Shown: one piece after another, positions 960 to 19,384 of the stretch
Numbering within the stretch: position 1 is the first letter of the stretch
Layout: the number at the start of each line of letters is the position of its first letter
IMG/VR virus record: IMGVR_UViG_3300026097_001034
Location: 1-20,957 of that record
From: a virus
Strand: one strand, 5' to 3'
DNA: 20,957 nucleotides
Notes under the pieces: generated by a model
The model's database searches: none
What the model was told of the DNA's origin: nothing
What the model saw: only the letters and a program-made list of their open reading frames with translations
Position numbers and translations under genes: made by a program

Positions 960-1559
960 ATGTTTGAAATTGTAGAAAATTTTGAAAATCAAATAGCAGA
1001 TTTCTACGGTGCTCCTTATGCTGTTGCCACCGATTCTTGTACACATGCTATAGAACTTTGTTTGCGTTATAAAAAAATTAAAGCTGCCACTTGTCCAACG
1101 CACACTTACATTTCTATTCCATTTACTTTTGAAAAATTAAATATAAACTGGAAATGGGAGAGAATCAATTGGAAAGATTTTTATTTTATCGGGAACACAA
1201 ATATCGTTGATGCTGCTGTACTATGGAAGGAAAATAGTTACATACAAAATACTCTAATGTGTTTAAGTTTTCAGTATAAAAAACATCTATCTCTAGGCAG
1301 AGGCGGCATGATTTTATGCGATAAAAAAGAAGAAAAAGACGAATTAAGAAAAATGAGTTACGATGGAAGAGATTTATCTAAACCTTGGAGAAAACAAAAC
1401 ATCAGTACCATAGGGTATCATTATTATATGACTCCAGAAACTGCTGAACAAGGTATAACAAAATTAGAATCTGCGAAAATAGATCAACCTAAAAAACATT
1501 GGAGTTGGAGGGATTATCCGGATTTATCTAAAATGGAAGTATTCAATGAAATCCACTAA
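960..1559 (+). CDS. Compact DegT/DnrJ/EryC1-type PLP aminotransferase
   Basis: This family transfers an amino group from an amino acid to a keto-sugar or keto-cyclitol using PLP. Its features appear in order: a small-residue phosphate-binding turn in TDSCTHAIELCLR (24-36); CPTHTY (45-50), where family members bind substrate and cofactor; the PLP-nitrogen aspartate D84 in IVDAA; the Schiff-base lysine motif SFQYKKHLSLGRGG (103-116), with K108 the best-aligned lysine; and GYHYYMTPETAEQG (152-165), matching the family GYNYRL region. At 199 residues it is about half the usual 360-400, lacking most of the C-terminal small domain and several linkers. The frame is clean, so it is compact rather than interrupted. 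It overlaps the amidinotransferase by 14 bp. The start has no ribosome site and follows a late-promoter box directly. Confidence 0.75.
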   Translation: MFEIVENFENQIADFYGAPYAVATDSCTHAIELCLRYKKIKAATCPTHTYISIPFTFEKLNINWKWERINWKDFYFIGNTNIVDAAVLWKENSYIQNTLMCLSFQYKKHLSLGRGGMILCDKKEEKDELRKMSYDGRDLSKPWRKQNISTIGYHYYMTPETAEQGITKLESAKIDQPKKHWSWRDYPDLSKMEVFNEIH

Positions 1560-2520
1560 CGAGTGGTCGCCACTTAAAAAAATCATAGTCGGTGTTGCTG
1601 ACAATGCTAAAATTCCAGAAATGGACATTAGTCTTCGAGTTGTAAATTATGCTGATAAAACAGAAGACGAAATTAAAGATATTAAATCTGGACTATATCC
1701 TCAACAAGTTATAGATGAAGCCAACGAAGATCTAGAAATTTTTAGCAATTTTTTAAAAGGTGAAGGTGTAGAAGTCGTTAGGCCAGAAAAAACAGACTGT
1801 AACTACTATAATTACTGTCCGAGAGACAATGTAATCGTCTACGACGATATGTCGATAGTTGCTCCTATGCCGTTGAGAGCGCGAAAAGACGAATATAAAT
1901 CATTCGAACAACATCTCGAAAATATACAAGTTATAGATTACAATCACAATGATGACTTGTATAATATAGAATGTCTAGGAGATCCTAACGTTCTTGCTAC
2001 AAATGAAACCGAACCGGCATTCGATGCGGCTAATGTGTTAAGGGCCAACGAAGATATTTTATATCTTGTCAGTAACAGCGGCAATATTAAAGGATCAGAA
2101 TATTTACAGAATATATTAGGAAACTGTGCCAAAGTGCATTTACTGGAAGATGTTTATAGTTATATGCATATTGACAGCACAATAGCGTTTTTAAGAGAAG
2201 GATTAATGTTAGCTAACCCTAGCAGAATAAGATCCAACGCCGATCTTCCTTCTGCATTTCAAAATTGGGACATTATATGGGCTCCCGAACCTGTAGATAT
2301 CGGTCACTATCCAGGATACTGCAATGCCAGTAAATGGGTAAGTGTTAATTTGTTTAGCGTAAATGAAAATCTAGTGGCATTAGAAGAACATCAACATAAC
2401 CTTAGAAAAGAATTAGAAAAATATAAAATAGAATGTGCTATGTTGCCTATGCGTCATAGTCGAACACTAGGCGGTGTATTTCATTGTGTTACTTTGGATT
2501 TAGAAAGAAATGTGGCATAA
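1546..2520 (+). CDS. Amidinotransferase (glycine / inosamine-phosphate amidinotransferase family)
   Basis: This family moves the amidino group of arginine onto an amine (glycine in creatine synthesis, amino-cyclitol phosphate in streptomycin synthesis), giving a guanidino product and ornithine. The 324-residue protein shows EWSPLKKIIVG (6-16), PRDN (92-95), EPAFDAANV (156-164), YMHIDSTIAFL (206-216) and GGVFHCVTLDL (309-319). These supply the complete Cys-His-Asp triad expected from human AGAT and StrB1: D160, H208 and C314. It overlaps the aminotransferase upstream by 14 bp and the oxygenase downstream by 11 bp. GGAAG lies a few bases before the ATG. The acceptor is unknown. The adjacent aminotransferase suggests a newly made amino sugar or amino cyclitol, but glycine or lysine cannot be excluded. 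Confidence 0.88.
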   Translation: MKSTNEWSPLKKIIVGVADNAKIPEMDISLRVVNYADKTEDEIKDIKSGLYPQQVIDEANEDLEIFSNFLKGEGVEVVRPEKTDCNYYNYCPRDNVIVYDDMSIVAPMPLRARKDEYKSFEQHLENIQVIDYNHNDDLYNIECLGDPNVLATNETEPAFDAANVLRANEDILYLVSNSGNIKGSEYLQNILGNCAKVHLLEDVYSYMHIDSTIAFLREGLMLANPSRIRSNADLPSAFQNWDIIWAPEPVDIGHYPGYCNASKWVSVNLFSVNENLVALEEHQHNLRKELEKYKIECAMLPMRHSRTLGGVFHCVTLDLERNVA

Positions 2521-3013
2521 AGGAAAAATACCTGTCATTTGGGACGAAAAATATAAAACATTTAATTACACAAAACAACCTATTATGGATGAAGAGATAC
2601 AAAAATGGAGGACACAGGGATATACACATAATAGTTTTTCAGGGTCAATGTACGATAGTAAAAATCCAATACCTGATTGGTGTTATACTATTGCAGACAA
2701 ATTAAACTTGGATCTTCCTGGATTTGTTTTTTATAAAATGACCACAGGGATAATAATGCCTACACACGTTGATCATTTTACTAGATATTGCAAAGTTTTT
2801 AAGGTAAAAAAAAGCAATGTTTACAGAGCCATAGTTTTTTTAGAAGACTGGCTTCCTGGGCATTATTTTGAAATAGACTCTCATTGTATAGCAAACTATT
2901 CTGCAGGAGATTATGTTTTATGGTCTCACGACGTTTCGCATGCCGCAAGTAATATAGGAATTTTGGACAGATATACTCTACAAATTACTGGAGTATTAAA
3001 TGAAAAAATTTGA
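2510..3013 (+). CDS. 2-oxoglutarate/Fe(II)-dependent oxygenase-like protein
   Basis: A 167-residue protein with the double-stranded beta-helix signature of small 2OG oxygenases. The iron triad is H86 and D88 in PTHVDHF, and H144 in WSHDVSHAASN. R154, ten residues further on, would bind the 2-oxoglutarate carboxylate. GDYVLWSH before the distal histidine and RYTLQITG after it fit the strands of this fold. Such enzymes hydroxylate amino-acid, peptide or small-molecule substrates. It overlaps the amidinotransferase by 11 bp and the next gene by 14 bp, so coupled translation is likely. The substrate is unknown. It most resembles the aspartyl/asparaginyl beta-hydroxylase-like class by motif spacing, which is an impression rather than an alignment. 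Confidence 0.7.
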   Translation: MWHKGKIPVIWDEKYKTFNYTKQPIMDEEIQKWRTQGYTHNSFSGSMYDSKNPIPDWCYTIADKLNLDLPGFVFYKMTTGIIMPTHVDHFTRYCKVFKVKKSNVYRAIVFLEDWLPGHYFEIDSHCIANYSAGDYVLWSHDVSHAASNIGILDRYTLQITGVLNEKI

Positions 3014-4196
3014 ATACAAACAAGATTTATTTTACAAGGATATTCCTGCCGGGCTGACTTATAAAAAATTAAAAATGTCTACACGATTGCATTTTTTACA
3101 ATCGAAGTTAGAAAAATGCTTTTTTTGGAATTTAAATAAACCTTGTTTAATTTATACTGGTACAAATCATCTTCCATTACATAAAATAACCATGTCTAAG
3201 AAAGGCAGGTCTCGTTTAAACAAAACAGGACTAATTATTTTTTTGTACGAACCTATGTGTTTTTATGATTCAAACACTCGACATAATAGAAACTTTTACA
3301 GTGAATTTTCATTTTGGAATAAAAAATTAAAATCCGACGAATTAGATAGTATAGGATTTTTTTTACTAGAAAACAATTTAAAAAATGTACAAATAAAAAC
3401 ATGTGATTACGACGGGTTTAATTTGTTATCAGACTATTACCGTCATTTAGATATAAAAACTAACGATTTATTTTTAAAAAGCATAAGTGTAAAGAAATCA
3501 ATAAACTTTAATAATGATTTTCAAAAGAAATTTTGGTGCGGAAATGGTAGATATACTCAACACAGGCATTTAATTATGTCATTTTTAACCAAGTTCGAAG
3601 GTAATTATAGTTGGTATTTTAAATGCGGATTCAACGCTTTAGAAGATAATACTTGGATACATCATTCATTATTGAATAAAAAATACACTGACAACATTAT
3701 TAACGGAAACACAATATTAAATAATAAATTATTCTATTTAGATAAAGCTCGTCCAATAGAGCAAGTAGAGGTTAATGGTGTACATATACCGCCAGAATTA
3801 TGGCCGAATAGCAACCTTAAGGAATCATATCAAGACTGTTTTTTGGCAATAGTTAACGAAACTAGATTTGCACAACCGTTTGCAAATATTAGTGAAAAAA
3901 CACTTCAAGCAATCTTTGTAGGAAAACCTTTTATTTTAGTCGCACCTCCGAAAAGTTTAGAATATATAAAAAAATTGGGATTTAAAACATTTAGTGAATA
4001 CTGGGATGAATCATATGACGACGAAGCAAATCCAACATTGAGAATTCAAAAAATTTTCGATTTAATTGAATTTATCAATTCAATACCGTTACAAGAACTT
4101 AGAAATATGTATCAGTCAATGCAAGAAATTTTGTTACACAATATACAAACAGCAGAACAATTAAAATTTAACAAGGAAGATATATTACCGTTATAA
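3000..4196 (+). CDS. Putative GT-B-like glycosyltransferase, paralog 1 of 3
   Basis: A 398-residue protein. Its C-terminal part contains IVNET (284-288) followed by SEKTLQAI (298-305), KPFILV and a LGFKTF...DESYDD segment. The 403-aa protein at 6256-7467 and the 427-aa protein at 9338-10621 have the same arrangement. An acidic residue followed by a [TS]EK helix and a hydrophobic P-[FM]-x-[IV] strand recalls the donor-binding half of fucosyltransferase-type GT-B enzymes, hence the assignment; it is not proof of activity. A basic RYTQHRH stretch (184-190) matches RxxHR/RxRPQR in the paralogs. It is the last gene of the four-gene plus-strand operon, with TGGAG before its ATG. No signal peptide or membrane segment is seen. 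Confidence 0.55.
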   Translation: MKKFEYKQDLFYKDIPAGLTYKKLKMSTRLHFLQSKLEKCFFWNLNKPCLIYTGTNHLPLHKITMSKKGRSRLNKTGLIIFLYEPMCFYDSNTRHNRNFYSEFSFWNKKLKSDELDSIGFFLLENNLKNVQIKTCDYDGFNLLSDYYRHLDIKTNDLFLKSISVKKSINFNNDFQKKFWCGNGRYTQHRHLIMSFLTKFEGNYSWYFKCGFNALEDNTWIHHSLLNKKYTDNIINGNTILNNKLFYLDKARPIEQVEVNGVHIPPELWPNSNLKESYQDCFLAIVNETRFAQPFANISEKTLQAIFVGKPFILVAPPKSLEYIKKLGFKTFSEYWDESYDDEANPTLRIQKIFDLIEFINSIPLQELRNMYQSMQEILLHNIQTAEQLKFNKEDILPL

Positions 4197-4280: not shown

Positions 4281-6203
4281 TCAATTAATTTTTGTTACCC
4301 AAGCTTTTCCAAAATTTCTTCTACGACTGAAATATATATTTTCTAAAAATCGTTCTATTGTAATGTCTTTTGATTCTAAAAAATCAAACTTGTATGTTGT
4401 TTTTTTATTTAAAGTAGTGTTTTCTAATAGATCTCCTAAGAAGTCATATTTGTATTCTCTAACGATTGGGTATTCTTTTACTTTATAGTAATCAATAACA
4501 AAATGTTTTTGAAAATCTAACAACTCTTTATTTTCAACTGATGGAAATTTAGTATTCATAAAATCTTCGACTAAACCAAAAACATATTCGTATTTGTTAT
4601 CAGCATGTATATTAAGTGTTGTTCTGTGTACTAGGTTCCAACCATGTACTTCAATATTAGAAATGTCTGGATGGCTTATTGAACCGTCAAACATCCAATT
4701 CCTATAATATTTTTTAATTTGCGTTCTTTCTTCTTCGAACCAGGCATTTTGTTTTAGATATTCATAGAGTTCCTCATAAAATTCTTTATAATCAATCTCA
4801 CGATGCTTTTTTAAGAATCTACTAATGTATGTGGTTAGTCCGTTGATATGGAATGTGTTAATAAACCAACTAAAAGCGTGTGCTTCTAACATTTCTTCTG
4901 TGGACATGTCTTTTGTAGAAATTACTACCTCAACGCATTCTTTTAGTTCGTCAAAGTTATAACTTCCGCTCATATAGTCATAAACAGGTCTAGATTCAAT
5001 TTGATGTTCTTCTTTTTGTGTTAAGTTCATTTCAGCATTTTCTAACATTTGTGCATGTAGAATAGTTATGCCTGTATGATTTCCTGCTCGAAACAATTTC
5101 CAAAAACCTTCTTTCCAAGTTTCTACTGTTTCTCCGGGCAAACCTAAAATAACTTCCGTGTATACTGGAATATTGTTTTTATCGCATAGTGTAAAAATAT
5201 CTTCTATTTTGTGCTGATCAAGATTTTTTCTTTTAATATTTTCTAAGACATCTAAATCCATGCTTTGCACACTAACAGTTAATCCTTGATTAAATTTAGG
5301 ACTCTTAATCAATTTTTTAACAATGTCAACAACTTCATTTTTTTGATTCTTTGCCCAAGCAACAGAAAATGTATACGGATATCCATATTCTTCTTGAACT
5401 TCTAATAATTTATCAGCGATCATGTTATCACGCTCTACAAACATTCCAAAATTTGCATCTGTAATACTAACAAAACCGCATTTATTTTTTCCAATCCATT
5501 CTAATTCTGCAAAAACTCTTTCTAAATTGAATTTTTTAACTTTGTTGTATGTAAGACTGCCCCAATCACAAAATGTACAGGCATACGGACATCCTCTGTT
5601 GGTTTCTAATGTGGCATTCCATTCTACACTGTCTGTTTCTGTTATTAATTTGTCAAAGACTCCTGATAGATAAGGACTTGGAATTTGTTCTAAATCTGAT
5701 ATTCTATTTGCCTTTCCGGTATCTAATACAACACCGCCATTGTTTAAGATTAATCCTGGAATATCATTTAATGATGTTTGATTTTTTAATGCTAATAACA
5801 GATTTTTAAATGTAATTTCTCCCTCAGATTTTACAACAATATCTATAAAAGGTAATTTTTGAAAAATGTCCTCTCTTTCTATAGGTATTTCTGGTCCTCC
5901 GAAAACAAAAATAGAGTTAGGGTTAAGTTTTTTAATTTCTTGTGCTAGTGCATAATTATAATTTTTGTTCCAAACATATGTACTAAAAGCAATTATATCA
6001 CTGTCGGCTAAGGATTTAGCAGTTGGAACTATGCTTGACCTTTTCCAAATCATTTTATCTAATTTGTAATAAGTATCAACTTCTATAAATTGACTAACAT
6101 ATGCCCATAAAACACCTACACTATACGGAAGATAGTGTGCATTAAACTCTTTAGGTCCTTGCTGGAAATTTGGTTGAACAAGACTGATTTTTTTAGTAAT
6201 CAT
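4281..6203 (-). CDS. Cobalamin-binding-domain radical SAM enzyme (B12-rSAM)
   Basis: About 640 residues. The first ~150 form a Rossmann-type B12-binding domain: ISLVQPNF at the start, then DIIAFSTYVW, FVFGGPEIP and DIVVKSEGE. The radical SAM barrel follows, with RGCPYACTFCDWG; the cluster cysteines are at about residues 205, 209 and 212. Later come SVQSMD and EVILGLPGET, also typical. The C-terminal ~270 residues are unassigned. Members carry out radical methylations, ring contractions and other reactions on unactivated carbons. The ATG at 6203 is preferred over a TTG 15 bases upstream because it sits next to the family's usual beginning and leaves GAG at a reasonable distance. It is a lone minus-strand gene between plus-strand units. 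The reaction cannot be predicted; the radical SAM call is firm. Confidence 0.85.
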   Translation of the reverse strand: MITKKISLVQPNFQQGPKEFNAHYLPYSVGVLWAYVSQFIEVDTYYKLDKMIWKRSSIVPTAKSLADSDIIAFSTYVWNKNYNYALAQEIKKLNPNSIFVFGGPEIPIEREDIFQKLPFIDIVVKSEGEITFKNLLLALKNQTSLNDIPGLILNNGGVVLDTGKANRISDLEQIPSPYLSGVFDKLITETDSVEWNATLETNRGCPYACTFCDWGSLTYNKVKKFNLERVFAELEWIGKNKCGFVSITDANFGMFVERDNMIADKLLEVQEEYGYPYTFSVAWAKNQKNEVVDIVKKLIKSPKFNQGLTVSVQSMDLDVLENIKRKNLDQHKIEDIFTLCDKNNIPVYTEVILGLPGETVETWKEGFWKLFRAGNHTGITILHAQMLENAEMNLTQKEEHQIESRPVYDYMSGSYNFDELKECVEVVISTKDMSTEEMLEAHAFSWFINTFHINGLTTYISRFLKKHREIDYKEFYEELYEYLKQNAWFEEERTQIKKYYRNWMFDGSISHPDISNIEVHGWNLVHRTTLNIHADNKYEYVFGLVEDFMNTKFPSVENKELLDFQKHFVIDYYKVKEYPIVREYKYDFLGDLLENTTLNKKTTYKFDFLESKDITIERFLENIYFSRRRNFGKAWVTKIN

Positions 6204-6223
6204 TAATAACGATCTCAAAATTT

Positions 6224-6255: not shown

Positions 6256-7467
6256 ATGAAAAGATATCAATCATCTAAAAAAACACCTATACTACACGAT
6301 AACGAATATGTGTGGGATCCTGGCGAAAATTTAAACAGTTTAGAATCTAGTTTTAATCTTATTGAAAGAAAAACTAAAAAAAGAATTTCTAATGTCAAGT
6401 ATGTATTATTATACCAAATTTATCCACCAAATGGATGGCCAGCTGATACCGATATTATAGGATTTCTCAATAAGAATGTAAAAAAACAATTACAAGAAAA
6501 AAAGATAATATTAATTTTAGATGGAACATTTGAGGGATACAGTCCTATATACAGTAATCATTATATTGCAAAATCTTTAGAATTTTCTGCAAAAAAACAT
6601 AACATCGATACAAAACAAATTTTCTTTTTTACTGGAAATTTAAAAGAGGTGTCATCTGAAATAAATGTTATACCTATTTTTAACATAGATGAAGGTCTAT
6701 TTGAACACGTTAATTTAGATAATAATGTAAACATCGCAAAAAAAGATGTAGAGAAAAATATCGGCGATAAAATATTTTTAAGTTTATCACGAAGAAATCG
6801 ATATCACCGTGTGTTGTCTAATTTTATGATTTATGATACACCTATATTTTCATACGGCTTAATTAGTCAAGACGTCGTTACTAGTAATTTTAACTTTAAT
6901 TCAAATTTGCTATCAAAAATAAACAAGACCGAAGATGACATTAAGAAATTTAAAAATTCTCTACCTTGGATTGCAGATGAAAATAACTTTTCTATAAACG
7001 ATCCAATGAATCCATTATACAATTTACATACAAAAACTCCATTTAGTATTGTAAACGAAACATATGCTAGTAATGAAAATAATACTACATTCTTCTATTC
7101 TGAAAAATTTTTAAAACCTATAATTGCATTCCAACCAATGGTAATATGGGGACAACCCGGAATCAATAAAAATCTAAGTATTATGGGATATCATGATTAT
7201 AGTGATTATTTTGATTTAAATTTTGATGATGAAGAAGACGATATAGTAAGATATCAAAAATTATTAAAATCAATTTCTCCTGTTGTAGAGGAATTATCAA
7301 AAATGCCAATCGATCAAAGAATAGAATGGCGTTTTAAAAATCAAGAATTATTACAACATAATTTCGATGCTTTTTTACAAAGAAATCATGCAACACAGCA
7401 ACTAAATTTGTTTGGCAAGATAATTTTTAGAATGTTAAAAAGTGGTTCGCTTATACCGTCACATTAA
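6256..7467 (+). CDS. Putative GT-B-like glycosyltransferase, paralog 2 of 3
   Basis: A 403-residue member of the family also found at 3000-4196 and 9338-10621. Shared landmarks are an N-terminal-half strand IILILDGTFEGY (84-95, matching AILLIDQTVEGY in paralog 3), FFFTGN (123-128), LSRRNRYHR (177-185), IVNET (265-269), SEKFLKPI (282-289), and a C-terminal acidic stretch (roughly residues 320-334) leading to QELLQHN. This copy has SEKF rather than SEKT, and its segment after PMVIW diverges more than the other two. The gene starts 16 bases after the shared 12-mer without a ribosome site, and its last 9 bases overlap the end of the convergent epimerase gene. The enzymatic role is inferred from motif order only. 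Confidence 0.5.
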   Translation: MKRYQSSKKTPILHDNEYVWDPGENLNSLESSFNLIERKTKKRISNVKYVLLYQIYPPNGWPADTDIIGFLNKNVKKQLQEKKIILILDGTFEGYSPIYSNHYIAKSLEFSAKKHNIDTKQIFFFTGNLKEVSSEINVIPIFNIDEGLFEHVNLDNNVNIAKKDVEKNIGDKIFLSLSRRNRYHRVLSNFMIYDTPIFSYGLISQDVVTSNFNFNSNLLSKINKTEDDIKKFKNSLPWIADENNFSINDPMNPLYNLHTKTPFSIVNETYASNENNTTFFYSEKFLKPIIAFQPMVIWGQPGINKNLSIMGYHDYSDYFDLNFDDEEDDIVRYQKLLKSISPVVEELSKMPIDQRIEWRFKNQELLQHNFDAFLQRNHATQQLNLFGKIIFRMLKSGSLIPSH

Positions 7468-8460
7468 TTTATGCGACCAAGTTTTAGGTGTATGATCATT
7501 AATTATTTCTAAAGGATATGAATAATCAAAAGGTTTGGCGCCACGTTGGTTGATATATTCTATAGTTTTTTGTATTCCATCATTTAAAGAAACTTTGGTA
7601 ACATAACCTAATTTTTGTTTAGCTTTGGTTGAATCACAAGTTGCGTATTTGATTTCATTGGGTCTAGAATTATGATATTCTATTTTTCCTCGATAATTTA
7701 ATTCTTCCATAACCATTTCGGCTAGTTCTTTTACAGTTATAGTTTCTTCATCGGGACCTATGTTAAATATTTCGTTTTTAATATTTTTATCAAGTGCTAG
7801 TTTTTCTAAACAATATACACAGTCGTTAATAAAACTAAAACATCGAGTTTGATTACCGTCTCCATAAATTACAGGAGGCTTTCCTTGCAGTACCCTGTTT
7901 ATCATAATACTCATAACATTTCTATATGGATCATCATATTTCTGCCTAGGACCAACAATATTATGCGGAACCGCTATAATCCATTCCATGTTATTCATCG
8001 GTGCTAGTGTTTTTAAAATTTCTTCTCCTGCAACTTTAGCAATTCCGTAAGGATCGACGGGCTGTGTGGGTTGTGTTTCTTTAAAAGGATAGCTTTGATT
8101 TCCATATCTAGCCATACTCGAACAATAAACAAATCTTTTTACCTTGTTTTGTATAGCGGCACTGATTGTACTAACACTTGCTTGAAAAATATTTTTGGTG
8201 ATAAAATTAGGACTGAATATACTCAATCCTTCGTGTGCTGTTGCCGCACAATGAAATACAACATCACAATCTTTCATTATAGCAGACATTTTTTCATTAT
8301 CACAACAATCTATATTGTAGTACTCTACAAGCGGATTTACATTATCCATATAACCGCCAATTAGTGTATCGTTTCCTACTACAGTGTGTCCTAACTCGAT
8401 CATTCTGTCTGCAAGGTGACTTCCGAGAAATCCTGCTACTCCGGTTATAAAAATTTTCAT
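7459..8460 (-). CDS. NAD-dependent epimerase/dehydratase (extended SDR)
   Basis: A 333-residue extended short-chain dehydrogenase. The nucleotide site is GVAGFLGSH (7-15), followed by a D31-type ribose-binding acidic residue and by CSSMARYG (113-120). The catalytic Y138-x-x-x-K142 lies in DPYGIAK. GPRQ, the loop after the catalytic helix, and the GDGNQTRCFSFINDCV region complete the nucleotide-sugar epimerase layout. Such enzymes invert or dehydrate the sugar of a nucleotide sugar; UDP-glucose 4-epimerase-like proteins have this pattern, but the exact substrate is not readable. It is the last gene of the ten-gene minus-strand operon, overlapping the SGNH hydrolase by 4 bp (ATGA). Its stop codon lies inside the tail of the convergent gene. 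Confidence 0.88.
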   Translation of the reverse strand: MKIFITGVAGFLGSHLADRMIELGHTVVGNDTLIGGYMDNVNPLVEYYNIDCCDNEKMSAIMKDCDVVFHCAATAHEGLSIFSPNFITKNIFQASVSTISAAIQNKVKRFVYCSSMARYGNQSYPFKETQPTQPVDPYGIAKVAGEEILKTLAPMNNMEWIIAVPHNIVGPRQKYDDPYRNVMSIMINRVLQGKPPVIYGDGNQTRCFSFINDCVYCLEKLALDKNIKNEIFNIGPDEETITVKELAEMVMEELNYRGKIEYHNSRPNEIKYATCDSTKAKQKLGYVTKVSLNDGIQKTIEYINQRGAKPFDYSYPLEIINDHTPKTWSHKLM

Positions 8461-9341
8461 ACTACATTTCTACTTTTCAAAATTTCGTAAATTACTTTAC
8501 TAACTTCATATGCACCTTCTTTTGTCCAATGATGACAAGGAGTTATATATTTTAAAGGGCTTTGGAGTTTACTTACATATTGCTGAGTTTGCCAAAATCC
8601 GGTGACTTCTGGGTGATTTTCTAGATTTCTAATATATTGCATGAAATCAGTACACGAATCTGGACAAATATAACTATTCCAGTTGACAACATTTATCCAG
8701 TCATGGACATCTTCTTCTAATGCGTTTTCGATATATTCTTTGTTAATCCTATCATCAAATGCAGGTCCGAACATAAAATGATACCCTTTAGATTTACAAA
8801 ATTGTTGAGCTTCGGCAATATTTAAAAGTAACTCCATTACATCTGTTTTTTTAGACCAGACAAGCGTAGCGTATTGTTCTTCTAATTTCCAAATATCGCC
8901 TCTATCGCGATTCATTGTCGGCCATATGGTTCTCCATTTTTGGTGATTCTCTGGTCCGGCGGTTTCTTTTTCATTTTTCAAAAAATCAAATCTTTCTGTT
9001 CCTGTAGCCATTAGAATTACCACAACATTACCTACATCATCCGGAAGAGGATTTAAATAAAGTTCTTTTACAGCAGCCCTGTTTCCTGCTCCGTTCACTC
9101 CGAGACTCATTGTTTTATACTCTGGAAGAAAGTTAGTTACAAGTTGTCTTACCCAATTGTTTTTACCTTGTTCTTCTACAAAATATTGGCCAGTTATATT
9201 ATGCAAAGACGGATTTAGTTTTTTAATTTTTTTATAAGTTTCATCAGAGTAAGCACCAACGCCTTGCGTAAAACTATCACCTAACCCGATAATAACATTA
9301 TCGCCCGGATTAATTATATCTACATTAGATTTTAAAGTCAT
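8457..9341 (-). CDS. SGNH/GDSL-type hydrolase
   Basis: A 294-residue protein with block I GLGDSFTQG (19-27, nucleophile S23), block II GVNGAGN (81-87, oxyanion Gly/Asn), and a C-terminal HHWTKEGAYEVS (270-281) supplying the catalytic histidine. The usual Asp three residues before that His is absent (Pro or Thr instead), which some SGNH enzymes tolerate. Related enzymes remove or transfer acyl groups, often acetyl on carbohydrates, so its place among glycosyltransferase-like genes suggests trimming or acylating a glycan. That last step is inference. There is no signal peptide, so cytoplasmic action is likely. It overlaps both neighbours by 4 bp. Confidence 0.8.
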   Translation of the reverse strand: MTLKSNVDIINPGDNVIIGLGDSFTQGVGAYSDETYKKIKKLNPSLHNITGQYFVEEQGKNNWVRQLVTNFLPEYKTMSLGVNGAGNRAAVKELYLNPLPDDVGNVVVILMATGTERFDFLKNEKETAGPENHQKWRTIWPTMNRDRGDIWKLEEQYATLVWSKKTDVMELLLNIAEAQQFCKSKGYHFMFGPAFDDRINKEYIENALEEDVHDWINVVNWNSYICPDSCTDFMQYIRNLENHPEVTGFWQTQQYVSKLQSPLKYITPCHHWTKEGAYEVSKVIYEILKSRNVV

Positions 9342-10621
9342 AAATTAAAATACTCTTTATAATAGTTAATAATAGATGTGTGTTCTTCTTGTGTTTTAGA
9401 CCCCATAGATAAAAATAATTTTTGATTATGTTCTAAAATTTCTTGCATGGATGAATACCAATTCAATTTATCTGGTATGTTTTTAATTTTATTGAGAGAT
9501 TCCATGACAGCAGTAAATCTGTCTTCGTCATCAAGATCATCATATGATTCATCTATAAATCCGTCAAATGTTTTGTACCCTAGTTTTCTAAGATATTTTA
9601 AACTATGTTTACTACCTACAATAATAAAAGGATGCATGGCGGCGATTGCTTTAAAAGTTTTTTCACTTATAAAAACACTTTCTTCATGTTCAAAATAACT
9701 TGATTCTGTAATTAAAGACACCCAAGTTTGTTCATAAACATCATCTAATATTCTAGTTATAAAAGAAGAAAATTCTGTGTCATTATGTTGTTTATGATTA
9801 ATAATCATAGGTGTTAGATTTTTACCAACTTTGATAGTTTTTTTTGATAATTTATAATCCAATAATTGTTTATCTGTTATTTGCCAATCGTTCGAATTTC
9901 CGATGCTAATTAAACCGTCGTTAATTAAATTAGATTGCACAAGTTGTAAAAAATTAATAATTCTTTGAGGTCTAGGTCTTAAGTTAGTACAATTATACAA
10001 TTTAATATTGTTGTTTTCTTTGAATGACAATAAATTATTAAAATTTATATCTAAATTATGTTGTTTGTATGTTTGATAAATGTAATAAGCTAAAGAAACT
10101 GACGGGATAACTTGTATTTTGTCATCTATTTTGTTTTTATTGCACCATAAATTGTACTGTTCTTTTGCTAGCTGATTTCCTGTAGCATAGATAATTGCTT
10201 TCGGGCTAATATTATATTGTTTACATTTATTGTGGAACCAATCCCATACCCATTCACTGTGGTAACCTTCTACAGTTTGATCAATTAATAAAATTGCTTT
10301 TCCTGCTTGTAAATCTCGAACATAGGTTTTATTAAGATATTCAAATATTGACAGATTAGAATTTTTATCAGTCCAATCATACGGACTATAAAACACGGAA
10401 GCAGATATAATATAGTTATCTATATCATTGTCAATAGCGTGTATCTGTATTTTAATTTCTAGAGTGTTTTTAAAGGATTTTAAAACTTCTAATAATTGTG
10501 AAGTTCTACAAAAACCAGAATCTACAAAATTACTAAAGTTACCAGAGTATAAATTATCGTGGAATGATTTAGTTCGATCATAGTTATTTTTGTCAAATTT
10601 AAAATTTAGTGTAAGTGTCAT
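9338..10621 (-). CDS. Putative GT-B-like glycosyltransferase, paralog 3 of 3
   Basis: A 427-residue protein and the clearest member of the three-copy family. It has AILLIDQTVEGY (109-120), IIYATGN (143-149), TNLRPRPQR (212-220), ITESS (304-308), SEKTFKAI (319-326), HPFIIVG, and a LGYKTFDGF-IDESYDD segment near 348-362. The C-terminal third is nearly colinear with the 398-aa plus-strand paralog, including the SMQEIL-HN ending. It sits 9 bp after the twitch radical SAM gene, the only non-overlapping junction in the operon, and overlaps the SGNH hydrolase by 4 bp. A donor-binding role is suggested by the E...SEK arrangement, but no substrate can be named. Confidence 0.5.
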   Translation of the reverse strand: MTLTLNFKFDKNNYDRTKSFHDNLYSGNFSNFVDSGFCRTSQLLEVLKSFKNTLEIKIQIHAIDNDIDNYIISASVFYSPYDWTDKNSNLSIFEYLNKTYVRDLQAGKAILLIDQTVEGYHSEWVWDWFHNKCKQYNISPKAIIYATGNQLAKEQYNLWCNKNKIDDKIQVIPSVSLAYYIYQTYKQHNLDINFNNLLSFKENNNIKLYNCTNLRPRPQRIINFLQLVQSNLINDGLISIGNSNDWQITDKQLLDYKLSKKTIKVGKNLTPMIINHKQHNDTEFSSFITRILDDVYEQTWVSLITESSYFEHEESVFISEKTFKAIAAMHPFIIVGSKHSLKYLRKLGYKTFDGFIDESYDDLDDEDRFTAVMESLNKIKNIPDKLNWYSSMQEILEHNQKLFLSMGSKTQEEHTSIINYYKEYFNL

Positions 10622-10630
10622 CTTAAATAT

Positions 10631-11983
10631 CTATTTGCTAGATTCATAAAAATCAACTAACTCAGGAAATGTTTTTGCAAAATTTAAGTTTCTCCTACGA
10701 TCATATTCTGTAAACCAATTATAAAAATCTTTGCGACCTTGTTTTAGTTTGTTATCAGAATATACAGTAGATTCCATATATTTTACTACTCTTAAAAATT
10801 TTTCATATTCCATTTCACTAAATTTTGTTTTATCGTTATCGTCTAGATTATTTTGAATATATTTTAAATGTCCATACATGTATGGCATAAAATCATCTTT
10901 AGGTAATATATTCATATCATATTGTAATGGTTCTTTTAAGTACGGAGTGTCAAACCTAATTCTTTGCCAGTCACTGGTATTGTATTTTGATCTCCATTCT
11001 AATATTTTTTCTAATAACCATTGAAAATTAGTCACCGTGAGAATATTAAATGTTATCATGAAAGTAATTGGTAAATTGGTTTTTGTCAAATAAGTATTTA
11101 AATTAAATTCCCACAGATTTAAATCTAATCCTGTCCTTATGTACTCTGCTTGTGGTCCCCAGGTATCGATACTGGTAAAGACTTTAAATCCACGGATACA
11201 TTTGTTTTCTATCAAACCATTAATTTTATCAGCAAGTCTATCTATTAATATAGGTTTGACTCCAAAATTGGTATTGATATTCAAATCTAATTGAGGTTGA
11301 GGATTTTTTTCTAGTTCGTCAAACAATCTCCAAGTACTTTGTTGTAGTAGCGGTTCTCCGCCTGTGATTCGAAGTATTGACAGTGTTTTACTTAGTTCAG
11401 GCCACCAATCCCAAAATGCTTGCACATAAGGATTGTCTTCTTCTTTGTATACAGTAAACCAATCAATGTCATTACGATGATTTTTTACCATAGTATACGG
11501 ACCATGTTGTTCTATTTCTTTATAATAACTACTAGAATGTTTAGGATGACAATATCCGCATTTAAAATTACACTCATTTCCGAAACTTATTTCTACATAT
11601 TCAGGATTTATATTTTGATCCCACGGACCGTTAGCTATTTCATCATATCGTTCTGGTGTATATATTGTAGAATTTCTTTCTTTTCTATCAGATATATACT
11701 CTTCACCGAGATCTTCAATATTCCAGCAGTACTGACACCCGCTTGGACGTTCTCCTTCCAGCATTTGAGCACGTTCAACCTTCTTTTGTTTTGTGTTATG
11801 AAGAGAACTGGGATTATTTTCTAGTTCTTCGAGTGGTATTTTATGAGGAGCAGGGTGATAGCAACTGTGTGTTTCTCCAGTTTGAAGATATATTGTAGTA
11901 TGATGCCATTTTGCCATGCAAAATGTAGGACTAAGAGCATCCATTAACGGTATTAGTTCTTGAATACGTTCTTTATCGCTCAT
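10631..11983 (-). CDS. Twitch-domain radical SAM protein
   Basis: A 450-residue radical SAM enzyme. The SAM-cluster motif is ECNFKCGYC (137-145; C138, C142, C145), and TGGEPLL follows at 208-214. Before the barrel is an extra cysteine set, FCMAKWHH (C22), SCYHP (C41) and GCQYCW (C83, C86), spaced like an auxiliary iron-sulfur 'twitch' half-SPASM domain placed at the N-terminus. N-terminal twitch radical SAM proteins are known from marine phages and bacteria and are mostly uncharacterised. Auxiliary-cluster radical SAM enzymes typically modify peptides or carry out dehydrogenations on small molecules. The gene overlaps the preceding paralog by 11 bp. The reaction is unknown. Confidence 0.85.
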   Translation of the reverse strand: MSDKERIQELIPLMDALSPTFCMAKWHHTTIYLQTGETHSCYHPAPHKIPLEELENNPSSLHNTKQKKVERAQMLEGERPSGCQYCWNIEDLGEEYISDRKERNSTIYTPERYDEIANGPWDQNINPEYVEISFGNECNFKCGYCHPKHSSSYYKEIEQHGPYTMVKNHRNDIDWFTVYKEEDNPYVQAFWDWWPELSKTLSILRITGGEPLLQQSTWRLFDELEKNPQPQLDLNINTNFGVKPILIDRLADKINGLIENKCIRGFKVFTSIDTWGPQAEYIRTGLDLNLWEFNLNTYLTKTNLPITFMITFNILTVTNFQWLLEKILEWRSKYNTSDWQRIRFDTPYLKEPLQYDMNILPKDDFMPYMYGHLKYIQNNLDDNDKTKFSEMEYEKFLRVVKYMESTVYSDNKLKQGRKDFYNWFTEYDRRRNLNFAKTFPELVDFYESSK

Positions 11984-16605: not shown

Positions 16606-18408
16606 TTATGAAACAGGCCCCAGAACGGTTCCTACATTTCTAAATGCGACGTTGGCAATACCCTTAACAGAAAGACCTGCAGATCCGCCGATACCTCCTG
16701 TGCCTTCAAGGTGCTGGTGATCGGGACTTTGTGCAAAGTTCACATTGCCTCGACCGCCAGGCGATCCATTTTCGCCCCAATTGCCTCCGGTTCCGCCGGC
16801 GCCGCCGACAACATTAGAGTTGCCGTCACTACTAGCACTTCCGCCGGAACCAGCTGAACTAAATGTTCCGGGTTGTCCGTCTTCATTAGGGACAGGGAAA
16901 AATGTGAATTTGTCAACGGATATACCTCCGGATGAGTTAAACCCGTTGCTTGATCTACCGCCGCCGCCTGCGCCGCCTTTTTCTGTGCTAGAGCTAACGA
17001 GTTGATCTTGAGGCTGAGTCCAGACAAGCAATTGAGCGAATCCACCGCCACCGCCACCGCCACCGCCGCCGGCGATGGTACCGTTATTGTCAATCATAGC
17101 ATTTACGCTAATAGTCAACGCTGTTCCTCCAGGATTTCCTGGATCACCGCCGGGTGGGTCCCACCTACCTCTATACGGATACGGCGCATCAAAAAGATTT
17201 ACTGATCTTACCGAACCGCCATTGCCGCCACGACCTACAATTGTTCCATTGTTTATTAAACTTACACCGTTGGGGAAGCTTCCTGAAATTGTGCAAGCGG
17301 CTGTGCTATCACCTGCGGTATTGCCTGATATAACAACACCGCTGTTAATTGTAATTGCTACTGCATCTGAGCCATTCCATCCGTTATTAAGAGCATAGGT
17401 ACGGATATTGAGATTGGTTTGATTAGTTGTAATTGTTCTCTTAAATGGTGCATCTGTCGGTGAAACATTTACGCTGGTTATATTTCCGAAACTGACGCTG
17501 GGTTTTTCTATAGTGACTGGTGTATTATTAGCTGGAACAAGTTTAAATATAGGATCTATGCTGCTTAAACTGAGACTCAGTGTTCCATCGACACCGTCAG
17601 GACCTACTACATTAAAATCGTGTCCGTCAATCCACTCCACCAAAAATTCTACAATTCTAGCGGTACCATTACTATTGTCTGATACTCCAGGAGTTCTAGC
17701 AGTAATCCTGTATGTGTTAGCACCGTATGGAGAACTTGAGGATTGTGTATATACTGTTTGATACGAGCCGCCCAATCTAAAATAATTTTGTCCGTTGTTA
17801 GGATTAACTCCGGTTCCTGGACGATTTCCTGCAAATATATCTGTGGCGGCAGCGGTTAAGAGATTAGACCACTCTGTATTTTGTGCGGCGATTGTTCCCG
17901 TGTCACTGCCGGTTGTTCCACCAGTTCGTGAACTTAAAAACGAAAAAGATCCGCCACTATTAAAATAATGTCTTGCCTGTTCAGCGGTACTCCATTCTAG
18001 TGTAATTAAACAGGTGCATTTCTCTCGCCATAGCGTGGTTCTTGTTTGTGTCCCATAATTAGTGGTTGTAAATTGTTGGCTTCCAACAGTAAATCTTGTC
18101 GAATCTAACGATTGGATTTCTGTAAGAAATTTGTTCCAAACAGAATTTGAAGTGTTGTATCTGATTTTTTGTGCTTCTACTGCACTAGGTAGTGAAGGAA
18201 TAGTCCCATTTTGATGTCGATATACATTAATTATATCGTTTCTTAGATCATCCCATTCTTGAATTGTGACTTTTTGCCCTGCAGAAACAGGACTACTTAA
18301 AACCGGTTGTCCGTATCCTGTATTGCTAGAGCCTGTACCTAAGACTCTTGCAACAATGGTTTGAATACTGTTATAGTCATCTCTGTCAATTATATCGCCT
18401 ACAGCCAT
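16606..18408 (-). CDS. Virion structural protein with C-terminal glycine-rich adhesin domain
   Basis: About 600 residues in two parts. Residues 1-~315 are a copy of the structural domain seen whole in the 314-aa neighbour: GDIIDRDDYNSI, TGYGQPVLSS, WDDLRNDIINV, ARHYFNSGGSF, SSRTGG. Residues ~320-600 are glycine-rich blocks separated by variable segments: GRGGNGG (393-399), PPGGDPGNPGG (419-429), a run of ten Gly (448-457), GGAGGGG (479-485), and further blocks to ~579. NNGTI[VA]G recurs at 387-393 and 442-448, with VGTVLG near the end. This is the layout of gp38-type tail-fibre adhesins, whose polyglycine helices display receptor-contacting loops; assignment as the receptor-binding tip is inference. 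The ATG at 18408 is preferred to the adjacent GTG because AGAGG sits six bases before it. No membrane segments. Confidence 0.8.
   Translation of the reverse strand: MAVGDIIDRDDYNSIQTIVARVLGTGSSNTGYGQPVLSSPVSAGQKVTIQEWDDLRNDIINVYRHQNGTIPSLPSAVEAQKIRYNTSNSVWNKFLTEIQSLDSTRFTVGSQQFTTTNYGTQTRTTLWREKCTCLITLEWSTAEQARHYFNSGGSFSFLSSRTGGTTGSDTGTIAAQNTEWSNLLTAAATDIFAGNRPGTGVNPNNGQNYFRLGGSYQTVYTQSSSSPYGANTYRITARTPGVSDNSNGTARIVEFLVEWIDGHDFNVVGPDGVDGTLSLSLSSIDPIFKLVPANNTPVTIEKPSVSFGNITSVNVSPTDAPFKRTITTNQTNLNIRTYALNNGWNGSDAVAITINSGVVISGNTAGDSTAACTISGSFPNGVSLINNGTIVGRGGNGGSVRSVNLFDAPYPYRGRWDPPGGDPGNPGGTALTISVNAMIDNNGTIAGGGGGGGGGGFAQLLVWTQPQDQLVSSSTEKGGAGGGGRSSNGFNSSGGISVDKFTFFPVPNEDGQPGTFSSAGSGGSASSDGNSNVVGGAGGTGGNWGENGSPGGRGNVNFAQSPDHQHLEGTGGIGGSAGLSVKGIANVAFRNVGTVLGPVS
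17042..17071. repeat. Short tandem repeat encoding the ten-glycine run
   Basis: CCACCG is repeated four times, then degenerates to CCGCCGG. On the coding strand these are alternating GGC and GGT codons. The tract is far more GC-rich than the surrounding genes. Changes by whole units would keep the frame, so length variation would alter only the glycine run. Confidence 0.7.
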
Positions 18409-18423
18409 CACATACCTCTAAAG

Positions 18424-18439: not shown

Positions 18440-19384
18440 TTATGAAGCTGTTATATTTGATACAGTGTATGCGGGACTGGTTATTGCAAATGCTCCTGTA
18501 GGGCCACCATCTGCTACATCCACAGGTTGTAAAACTCCTGATGCTTTTTGTTCTTCTAGTGTAATGGTTAGTGTTCCGTCTACTTGATCTATTGGTAAAT
18601 TTTCATCTGCTGGAAATCCGGCAACTATATCTGGATCAATGTATGCGTCAATTAATTCTACTTTTATATCTACTTCTGTAGCAGTTCCAGTGTTATTGTT
18701 TGCAACATCGCATTTTGCAGATATTCTATAAGTATTATCAGCATAAGCCGCACTAGAACTAACTTCGTATAATGTTTGATATGAATTGGTTAGCGTGTAA
18801 AAATTAATTTCTTCACCTGTGCCTGCTTTGAATAATTGTGTTCCTGTCTCAGTCAACAAAGCAGTCCAGGAGTCATTTTGCAGTGTAGCAGAACCGCCTG
18901 TCCTTGAAGTTGTAATTTTTACATTACCGCCACTGTTAAAAAAATACCTTGCTTCATTAGCATTGTTAAAAGTCATTGTGCAGGTTAAAGTTGCCAAACT
19001 GCTCCAGCCACTAGAATAAGTTTTAGGCGATCCTATAGCAGAAGTAACACTTTGGCTCGGAGCAAGATCAAATCTGTTTGCTCTGGCTTGATTAGTTAAG
19101 GTATTGTAATTCACTACAGGATCGCTGGCTCGATCGTCGATTACATCGCCTGTGCTGATCAAAACCGCAGATGGTGTGTTGCCTGTTTGGTGAATAAGTG
19201 CGTTTATTACGTCAAATCTCAAAGCCGTCCACTGTGCCGCTGTGATTGTATTCCCAGTCGTAACAGTGCTGCTTACTATAGATTGTCCATAACCGTAGGT
19301 GCCTAACCCTGTCCCCATTACTTCAATAATATTTGCTCTAATAGAATTATAGTCTAGAGCTTCTATATCACCAGCTAATGCCAT
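18440..19384 (-). CDS. Virion structural protein, short paralog without adhesin tail
   Basis: A 314-residue protein of the type common in T4-like marine phage structural clusters. It shows GDIEALDYNSIRANI (5-19), GTYGYGQSIVSST, AAQWTALRFDVINALIH, ARYFFNSGGNV and TTSRTGG in the same order and spacing as the first half of the following adhesin gene. The body is Ser/Thr/Asn-rich and strand-rich, without cysteine clusters or membrane segments. Its ATG overlaps the stop of the fibre-like gene (TAATG). It may be a baseplate or fibre component; its exact place in the virion is unknown. Confidence 0.8.
   Translation of the reverse strand: MALAGDIEALDYNSIRANIIEVMGTGLGTYGYGQSIVSSTVTTGNTITAAQWTALRFDVINALIHQTGNTPSAVLISTGDVIDDRASDPVVNYNTLTNQARANRFDLAPSQSVTSAIGSPKTYSSGWSSLATLTCTMTFNNANEARYFFNSGGNVKITTSRTGGSATLQNDSWTALLTETGTQLFKAGTGEEINFYTLTNSYQTLYEVSSSAAYADNTYRISAKCDVANNNTGTATEVDIKVELIDAYIDPDIVAGFPADENLPIDQVDGTLTITLEEQKASGVLQPVDVADGGPTGAFAITSPAYTVSNITAS

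Follow-up and report, generated by a model that had tools for sequence, protein, structure and literature searches.

The stretch of DNA analysed here, called the window throughout, comprises positions 1 to 20,957 of the virus record IMGVR_UViG_3300026097_001034 from IMG/VR (20,957 nucleotides), and it carries four consecutive plus-strand genes that may together build a guanidino sugar and place it on a glycan. The open reading frames encode a half-size DegT-type aminotransferase (mini-DegT; 960–1559, 199 amino acids), an amidinotransferase (AMT; 1546–2520, 324 amino acids), a probable oxygenase (OXY; 2510–3013, 167 amino acids), and a glycosyltransferase-like protein with a predicted GT-B fold (3000–4196, 398 amino acids). 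An earlier, sequence-only reading had described four frames overlapping by 14, 11, and 14 bp behind a late-type box, and the coordinates confirm this arrangement, with the T4-type late promoter box TATAAATA lying on the plus strand at 947–954 and 5 nt separating its end from the mini-DegT ATG. The octamer is not commoner in the window than chance (3 seen vs. 4.9 expected), and the box is considered meaningful because its position is conserved: of 78 relatives examined (near-copies counted), 17 have it at the same offset ahead of the mini-DegT start, where 0.003 would be expected per 110 nt, and in many of the others that offset is occupied by a variant differing in one letter. Two further late boxes in the window lie 28–29 nt from their genes, which have purine-rich stretches ahead of the ATG. 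The 5-nt spacing, which is conserved in relatives, leads to the prediction that the late mini-DegT transcript is leaderless and starts at or beside the ATG (947–962).

Mini-DegT belongs to the DegT/DnrJ/EryC1/StrS family (Pfam PF01041, 2.3e-17, 63.7 bits against a cut-off of 19.8) and, as judged from its sequence and its model, is a half-size DegT aminotransferase in which the catalytic residues have been kept. The aspartate and the glycine-rich motif of DegT sugar aminotransferases are present, the pyridoxal phosphate (PLP) lysine K108 aligns with the lysine of the SF...K motif, and K108, D84, and T28, together with many more positions, are invariant among 45 viral homologues down to 40% identity. 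The AlphaFold2 model (pLDDT 94.9) superimposes on the sugar transaminase 7b0d with a VIA Z of 19.9 and a root-mean-square deviation of 2.4 Å over 189 residues of the 368-residue chain; the nearest solved folds are sugar aminotransferases, and the first in Foldseek is GDP-perosamine synthase. The two-domain DegT architecture of about 360–400 amino acids is absent, as mini-DegT consists of the core only, with the C-terminal domain and parts of the loops gone. Nearly all viral mini-DegT proteins measure 194–235 amino acids, the longest values including in-frame upstream starts from the calling of reading frames, and this uniformity indicates that the short protein is no local truncation. The halved size and the missing domain would be expected of a non-catalytic remnant or scaffold beside an AMT that uses a host-made amine, but such an explanation is very hard to reconcile with the invariant residues, the uniform length, and the high-confidence aminotransferase fold predicted for the protein, and it is regarded as the least probable of those considered here.

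The second protein, AMT, is on sequence grounds an L-arginine amidinotransferase of the StrB1/AGAT superfamily. A Pfam scan returned no family reaching 0.01; the best match in the PDB is StrB1 (1bwd; 9.1e-58, 199 bits), followed by AGAT (130 bits), HsvA (128 bits), and SxtG (98 bits). The catalytic residues D160, H208, and C314, which correspond to the triad of AGAT (PMC3684758), are kept in 78 of 78 viral members. The same holds for D94, D210, and R227, while S262 is kept in 77. These four positions correspond to D170, D305, R322, and S354/355 of AGAT, which we take to be the residues that bind the arginine donor. In a careful tree, with which a quick tree agrees, the viral AMTs form a single virus-only clade (100/100), AGAT and HsvA are grouped at 100/100 apart from that clade, and StrB1 pairs with a Streptomyces row and not with the viral proteins; because StrB1 was part of the alignment that supplied the patterns for retrieving cell sequences, the sampling leans towards StrB1. 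AmtA and CyrA were left out of the tree, and their flaps were taken from the literature (PMC4887976), where the lysine-specific AmtA is nearest to AGAT. A grouping with glycine-specific enzymes, which the sequence-only reading had held up as counter-evidence, is thus not what the tree gives, as it places AMT apart from AGAT. Outside viruses, a single-sequence genome scan found no cell relatives of AMT, whereas a profile scan found them at no more than about 44% identity, and no mini-DegT was found beside them in that scan.

The acceptor flap of the viral AMTs reads Y-S-(Y/F)-(M/I)-H and differs from the flaps of AGAT (P-N-P-M-H), HsvA (P-A-P-M-H), StrB1 (Y-A-S-T-H), and most cell relatives. 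Papers on phages and viruses have given viral amidinotransferases the name glycine amidinotransferase (PMC2853527; PMC8226683), and a virus catalogue label, K00613, would make AMT an enzyme of amino-acid metabolism that produces guanidinoacetate or homoarginine. The position of AGAT and HsvA away from the viral clade argues against that role; so does flap position 300, which is S in the viral proteins, N in AGAT, and H in AmtA (PMC4887976), and so does position 301, which is Y/F and not P. Given also the constant linkage of AMT to a sugar-type DegT and to glycosyltransferases, a role in amino-acid metabolism appears improbable.

The third protein, OXY, is probably an Fe(II)/2-oxoglutarate oxygenase, as suggested by an HxD...H...R motif in which H86, D88, and H144 are invariant and R154 nearly so among 35 relatives. 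Eight of these relatives weakly match the aspartyl/asparaginyl hydroxylase family PF05118 (best 1.2e-4) and two weakly match PF05721, while the window protein has no Pfam match and a PDB profile search of it gave chance-level matches only.

A first scan with AMT gave 45 viral loci, with mini-DegT near AMT in nearly all of those where the flank was long enough, and a profile scan showed that at least 589 viral stretches encode AMT relatives. Among 80 distinct viral AMT loci, the window included and 6–8 kb of flank examined per locus, mini-DegT is present in 77 and OXY in 71, whereas glycosyltransferases and further neighbours vary. The sequence-only reading had asked for the gene order in other phages, and the gene set does recur in dozens of viral contigs. 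The reciprocal scan with mini-DegT returned 68 distinct loci, 38 with AMT and 30 without (Fisher 1.6e-9 for a one-way dependence), and OXY accompanies mini-DegT in 35 of the 38 loci with AMT as against 2 of the 30 without it (Fisher 1.7e-13), although the loci are kin to one another and both values overstate their independence. AMT is thus nearly always found with mini-DegT, which itself often occurs without AMT, the pattern to be expected if AMT depends on what the DegT enzyme makes, and the earlier proposal that the two catalyse consecutive steps is supported by this asymmetry. Together with the tracking of AMT by OXY, the one-way dependence is most simply read as amination followed by amidination, and OXY would act either on the guanidino product or next to it. 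All three genes lie among glycosyltransferase genes in the cultured Synechococcus phage S-SCSM2R, whose genome is complete, and a T4-type capsid gene, Gp23, is present in 4 of 12 related records, S-SCSM2R included. Two loci (L032, 8984–15743; L035, 8987–15738) each carry two divergent sets, with AMTs at about 60% and 32% and DegT proteins at about 55% and 41% identity. Both also encode an additional, very divergent AMT-like protein of 365 amino acids.

A different order of events can be drawn from the same three genes, in which OXY would first turn a hydroxyl group of a finished glycan into a ketone, mini-DegT would convert the ketone to an amine, and AMT would add the amidino group, so that a hydroxyl becomes a guanidino group on a bulky acceptor. 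The three genes usually stand together, and a trimmed mini-DegT and an AMT whose loop ahead of the PRD motif has some 12 residues fewer than that of StrB1 could leave both active sites open to such an acceptor. However, mini-DegT occurs without OXY in 28 of the 30 loci that lack AMT, so the DegT enzyme does not need OXY, which instead tracks AMT; modification of a built glycan is therefore judged unlikely, though it is the strongest of the competing explanations.

The loci that lack AMT also point to the substrate of mini-DegT. A GDP-mannose 4,6-dehydratase gene is found in 13 of these 30 loci but in only 1 of the 80 AMT loci. Five copies were tested, and all are no more than about 600 bp from mini-DegT, with TIGR01472 scores of 377–393 bits, a little short of the cut-off of 415. 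GDP-perosamine synthase is the textbook partner of GDP-mannose 4,6-dehydratase, and since it is also the first Foldseek match of mini-DegT, a sugar nucleotide is likely to be the substrate class. In two loci without AMT (L218, 5995–8138; L243, 5995–7556), mini-DegT is accompanied by a small cupin-like protein and by GDP-mannose 4,6-dehydratase, an arrangement that possibly represents a perosamine-type branch in phages. Small cupin-like and methyltransferase-like neighbours are seen among the mini-DegT loci that lack AMT, and the huge phage LR756502 (642 kb; L211, 618–9016) has no AMT either, while its glycan island contains mini-DegT, a UDP-glucose dehydrogenase, several transferase-like proteins, and one resembling an epimerase.

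The sequence-only reading had left the product as either a guanidino-sugar or a guanidino-cyclitol. The second option amounts to a streptidine-like pathway, in which the DegT enzyme turns an inosose into an inosamine and AMT yields a guanidino-cyclitol. StsC-type enzymes belong to the DegT family, and StrB1 is the top solved-structure match of AMT. StrB1 similarity does not fix the substrate, however, since StrB1-like genes also occur in Pseudomonas clusters whose product we take to be of the amino-acid type, no cyclitol being known from it. The gene in question is annotated as an inosamine-phosphate amidinotransferase and sits in clusters related to an antimicrobial product (PMC4010436). Moreover, the tree places StrB1 outside the viral AMTs, the flaps of the two differ, mini-DegT is half the size of StsC-type enzymes, and in many loci that lack AMT it is found with GDP-mannose 4,6-dehydratase. 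Neither PF01658 (inositol-1-phosphate synthase) nor PF01408 (GFO/IDH dehydrogenase) was found in the 12 related records, of which that of S-SCSM2R is complete and the rest are possibly partial; as a host could supply inositol, this absence lowers the case for a cyclitol without excluding it. Of the two proposed products, the sugar has therefore gained support and the cyclitol has not; a guanidino sugar is the favoured product class, and a streptidine-like route is considered quite unlikely.

The fourth protein is predicted from its AlphaFold2 model (pLDDT 84.5) to be glycosyltransferase-like, with a GT-B fold: all VIA matches listed are glycosyltransferases, among them the phage HY126 glycosyltransferase (Z 11.0) and T4 beta-glucosyltransferase (Z 10.4), and E287, E299, K300, G327, D340, and N381 are invariant in the family alignment. 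It has no sequence family match in Pfam and none in a PDB profile search. A scattered match of the family to ferritin (5 of 38 relatives) was rejected, as it conflicts with the predicted fold. Downstream of the operon lie two tail-fibre-like proteins (16606–18411 and 18440–19384) that have in common an N-terminal half of about 280 amino acids at 36% identity, and the first has a Gp38-like adhesin domain at its C-terminal end. The presence of T4 beta- and alpha-glucosyltransferases and a phage glycosyltransferase among the top fold matches could suggest that the GT-B protein puts a guanidino sugar on phage DNA, but GT-B folds are similar whichever the acceptor, no thymidylate synthase/dCMP hydroxymethylase family member was found in the 12 related records, and the late promoter and tail-fibre neighbourhood point elsewhere; hypermodification of DNA is accordingly given little credence. 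The late-class box and the Gp38-like tail-fibre genes downstream would fit a late decoration of the virion or the host surface.

Taken together, these observations favour, with a probability of roughly 0.55, a phage cassette, expressed late, for making a guanidino sugar and installing it in a glycan. Mini-DegT, with PLP, would aminate a keto sugar that is probably bound to a sugar nucleotide, and AMT would transfer the amidino group of L-arginine, via a cysteine intermediate, to the amine made by mini-DegT. OXY may then hydroxylate or otherwise oxidise the guanidino sugar or a near neighbour, and the GT-B proteins would transfer the sugar, most likely to a part of the virion (the tail fibres, whose genes lie downstream, would be an example) or to the host surface. 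What the analysis shows are the genes themselves, the conservation of catalytic and donor-binding residues, the fold predicted for mini-DegT, the linkage kept across viruses, and the one-way dependence of AMT on mini-DegT; we infer the sugar as acceptor, the order of the amidination and oxidation steps, and the destination. Several points weigh against this pathway: mini-DegT is without its C-terminal domain, and the activity of so short a form is a prediction; the AMT flap is unlike that of any characterised enzyme compared, so that it does not fix the amine acceptor; the OXY assignment derives from a motif and weak matches, and that of the GT-B protein from its fold, at a Z of about 11. In addition, neither a UDP-glucose/GDP-mannose dehydrogenase (UGD) nor an epimerase was found nearby in 30 of the 80 AMT loci, where the keto sugar would therefore have to come from elsewhere.

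In many lineages, the cassette is flanked by genes for glycosyltransferases, UGD, an epimerase, and radical SAM proteins. On the minus strand of the window, UGD (2–901; PF03721, PF00984; phrog_9148, 1e-85) is cut by the window edge and forms a divergent neighbour with its own late box, and it recurs in 32 of the 80 AMT loci. An NDP-sugar epimerase/dehydratase of the extended short-chain dehydrogenase/reductase type (7459–8460, minus strand; PF01370, 5e-47; TIGR01181, 3.5e-38, under its cut-off) has related genes in 20 of the 80 and is a possible source of the keto sugar. Two GT-B paralogues lie at 6256–7467 on the plus strand and at 9338–10621 on the minus strand, each with 22% identity in the family alignment. 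The same glycan region encodes a B12-binding radical SAM protein (4281–6218), whose best NCBIfam match is the KedN5 methyltransferase family (3.7e-81). A Twitch-domain radical SAM protein is encoded at 10631–11983 (NF033640, 323 bits against a cut-off of 170), and related loci, L030 among them, contain several paralogues. The protein at 8457–9341 contains a GDSFTQG block like that of SGNH/GDSL hydrolases and has no Pfam match.

If the proposed pathway is correct, then the placing of guanidinium groups on sugars, a type of chemistry familiar mostly from antibiotics, is also carried out by aquatic viruses that make up a widespread group. Virus surveys would then have to re-assign genes that they now record as amidinotransferases for glycine or inosamine, a compact DegT of about 195 amino acids would be added to the PLP enzymes, and the virions of a cultured phage should bear a testable chemical mark of +42.02 Da. 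More tentatively, aquatic phages may have in common a pathway dedicated to guanidino sugars, with a half-size DegT enzyme at its base; carried on the virion, for example on the tail fibres, the sugar would act as a fixed positive charge and help the phage to adsorb or to escape defence.

GDP-perosamine synthase and other DegT sugar aminotransferases have the fold, the PLP lysine, the aspartate, and the glycine-rich motif in common with mini-DegT, but they comprise about 370 amino acids as opposed to about 195–200, the C-terminal domain and parts of the loops being those that the viral form lacks. StrB1 and AMT are alike in superfamily, catalytic Asp-His-Cys, arginine-binding residues, and the Tyr that replaces Pro299 of AGAT in the flap, whereas StrB1 has Y-A-S-T where AMT has Y-S-Y-M, retains the 12 or so residues ahead of the PRD motif, falls outside the virus-only clade, and belongs to a pathway whose inositol genes were not found in the related viruses. 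AGAT and HsvA catalyse the same chemistry with the same catalytic residues, but group apart from the viral AMTs and carry P-N-P-M and P-A-P-M flaps.

The modification of glycans by phages is itself known, whereas no description of a DegT and amidinotransferase pathway in phages was found in the openly licensed literature, and as far as that literature goes, guanidino-sugar chemistry in phages has not been described before. The Campylobacter phages CP220 and CPt10 (PMC2853527) also have an amidinotransferase beside sugar-transferase and radical SAM genes, but their AMT is only 24% identical to that of the window, and mini-DegT and OXY were not detected there. An isolated counterpart is S-SCSM2R, which differs in gene order and in its labels (AHBA synthase and inosamine amidinotransferase), and for which no pathway described in the literature was found; its genes 305–310, among glycosyltransferase genes, nevertheless encode a mini-DegT, an OXY, and an AMT that are 64%, 32%, and 64% identical, respectively, to those of the window.

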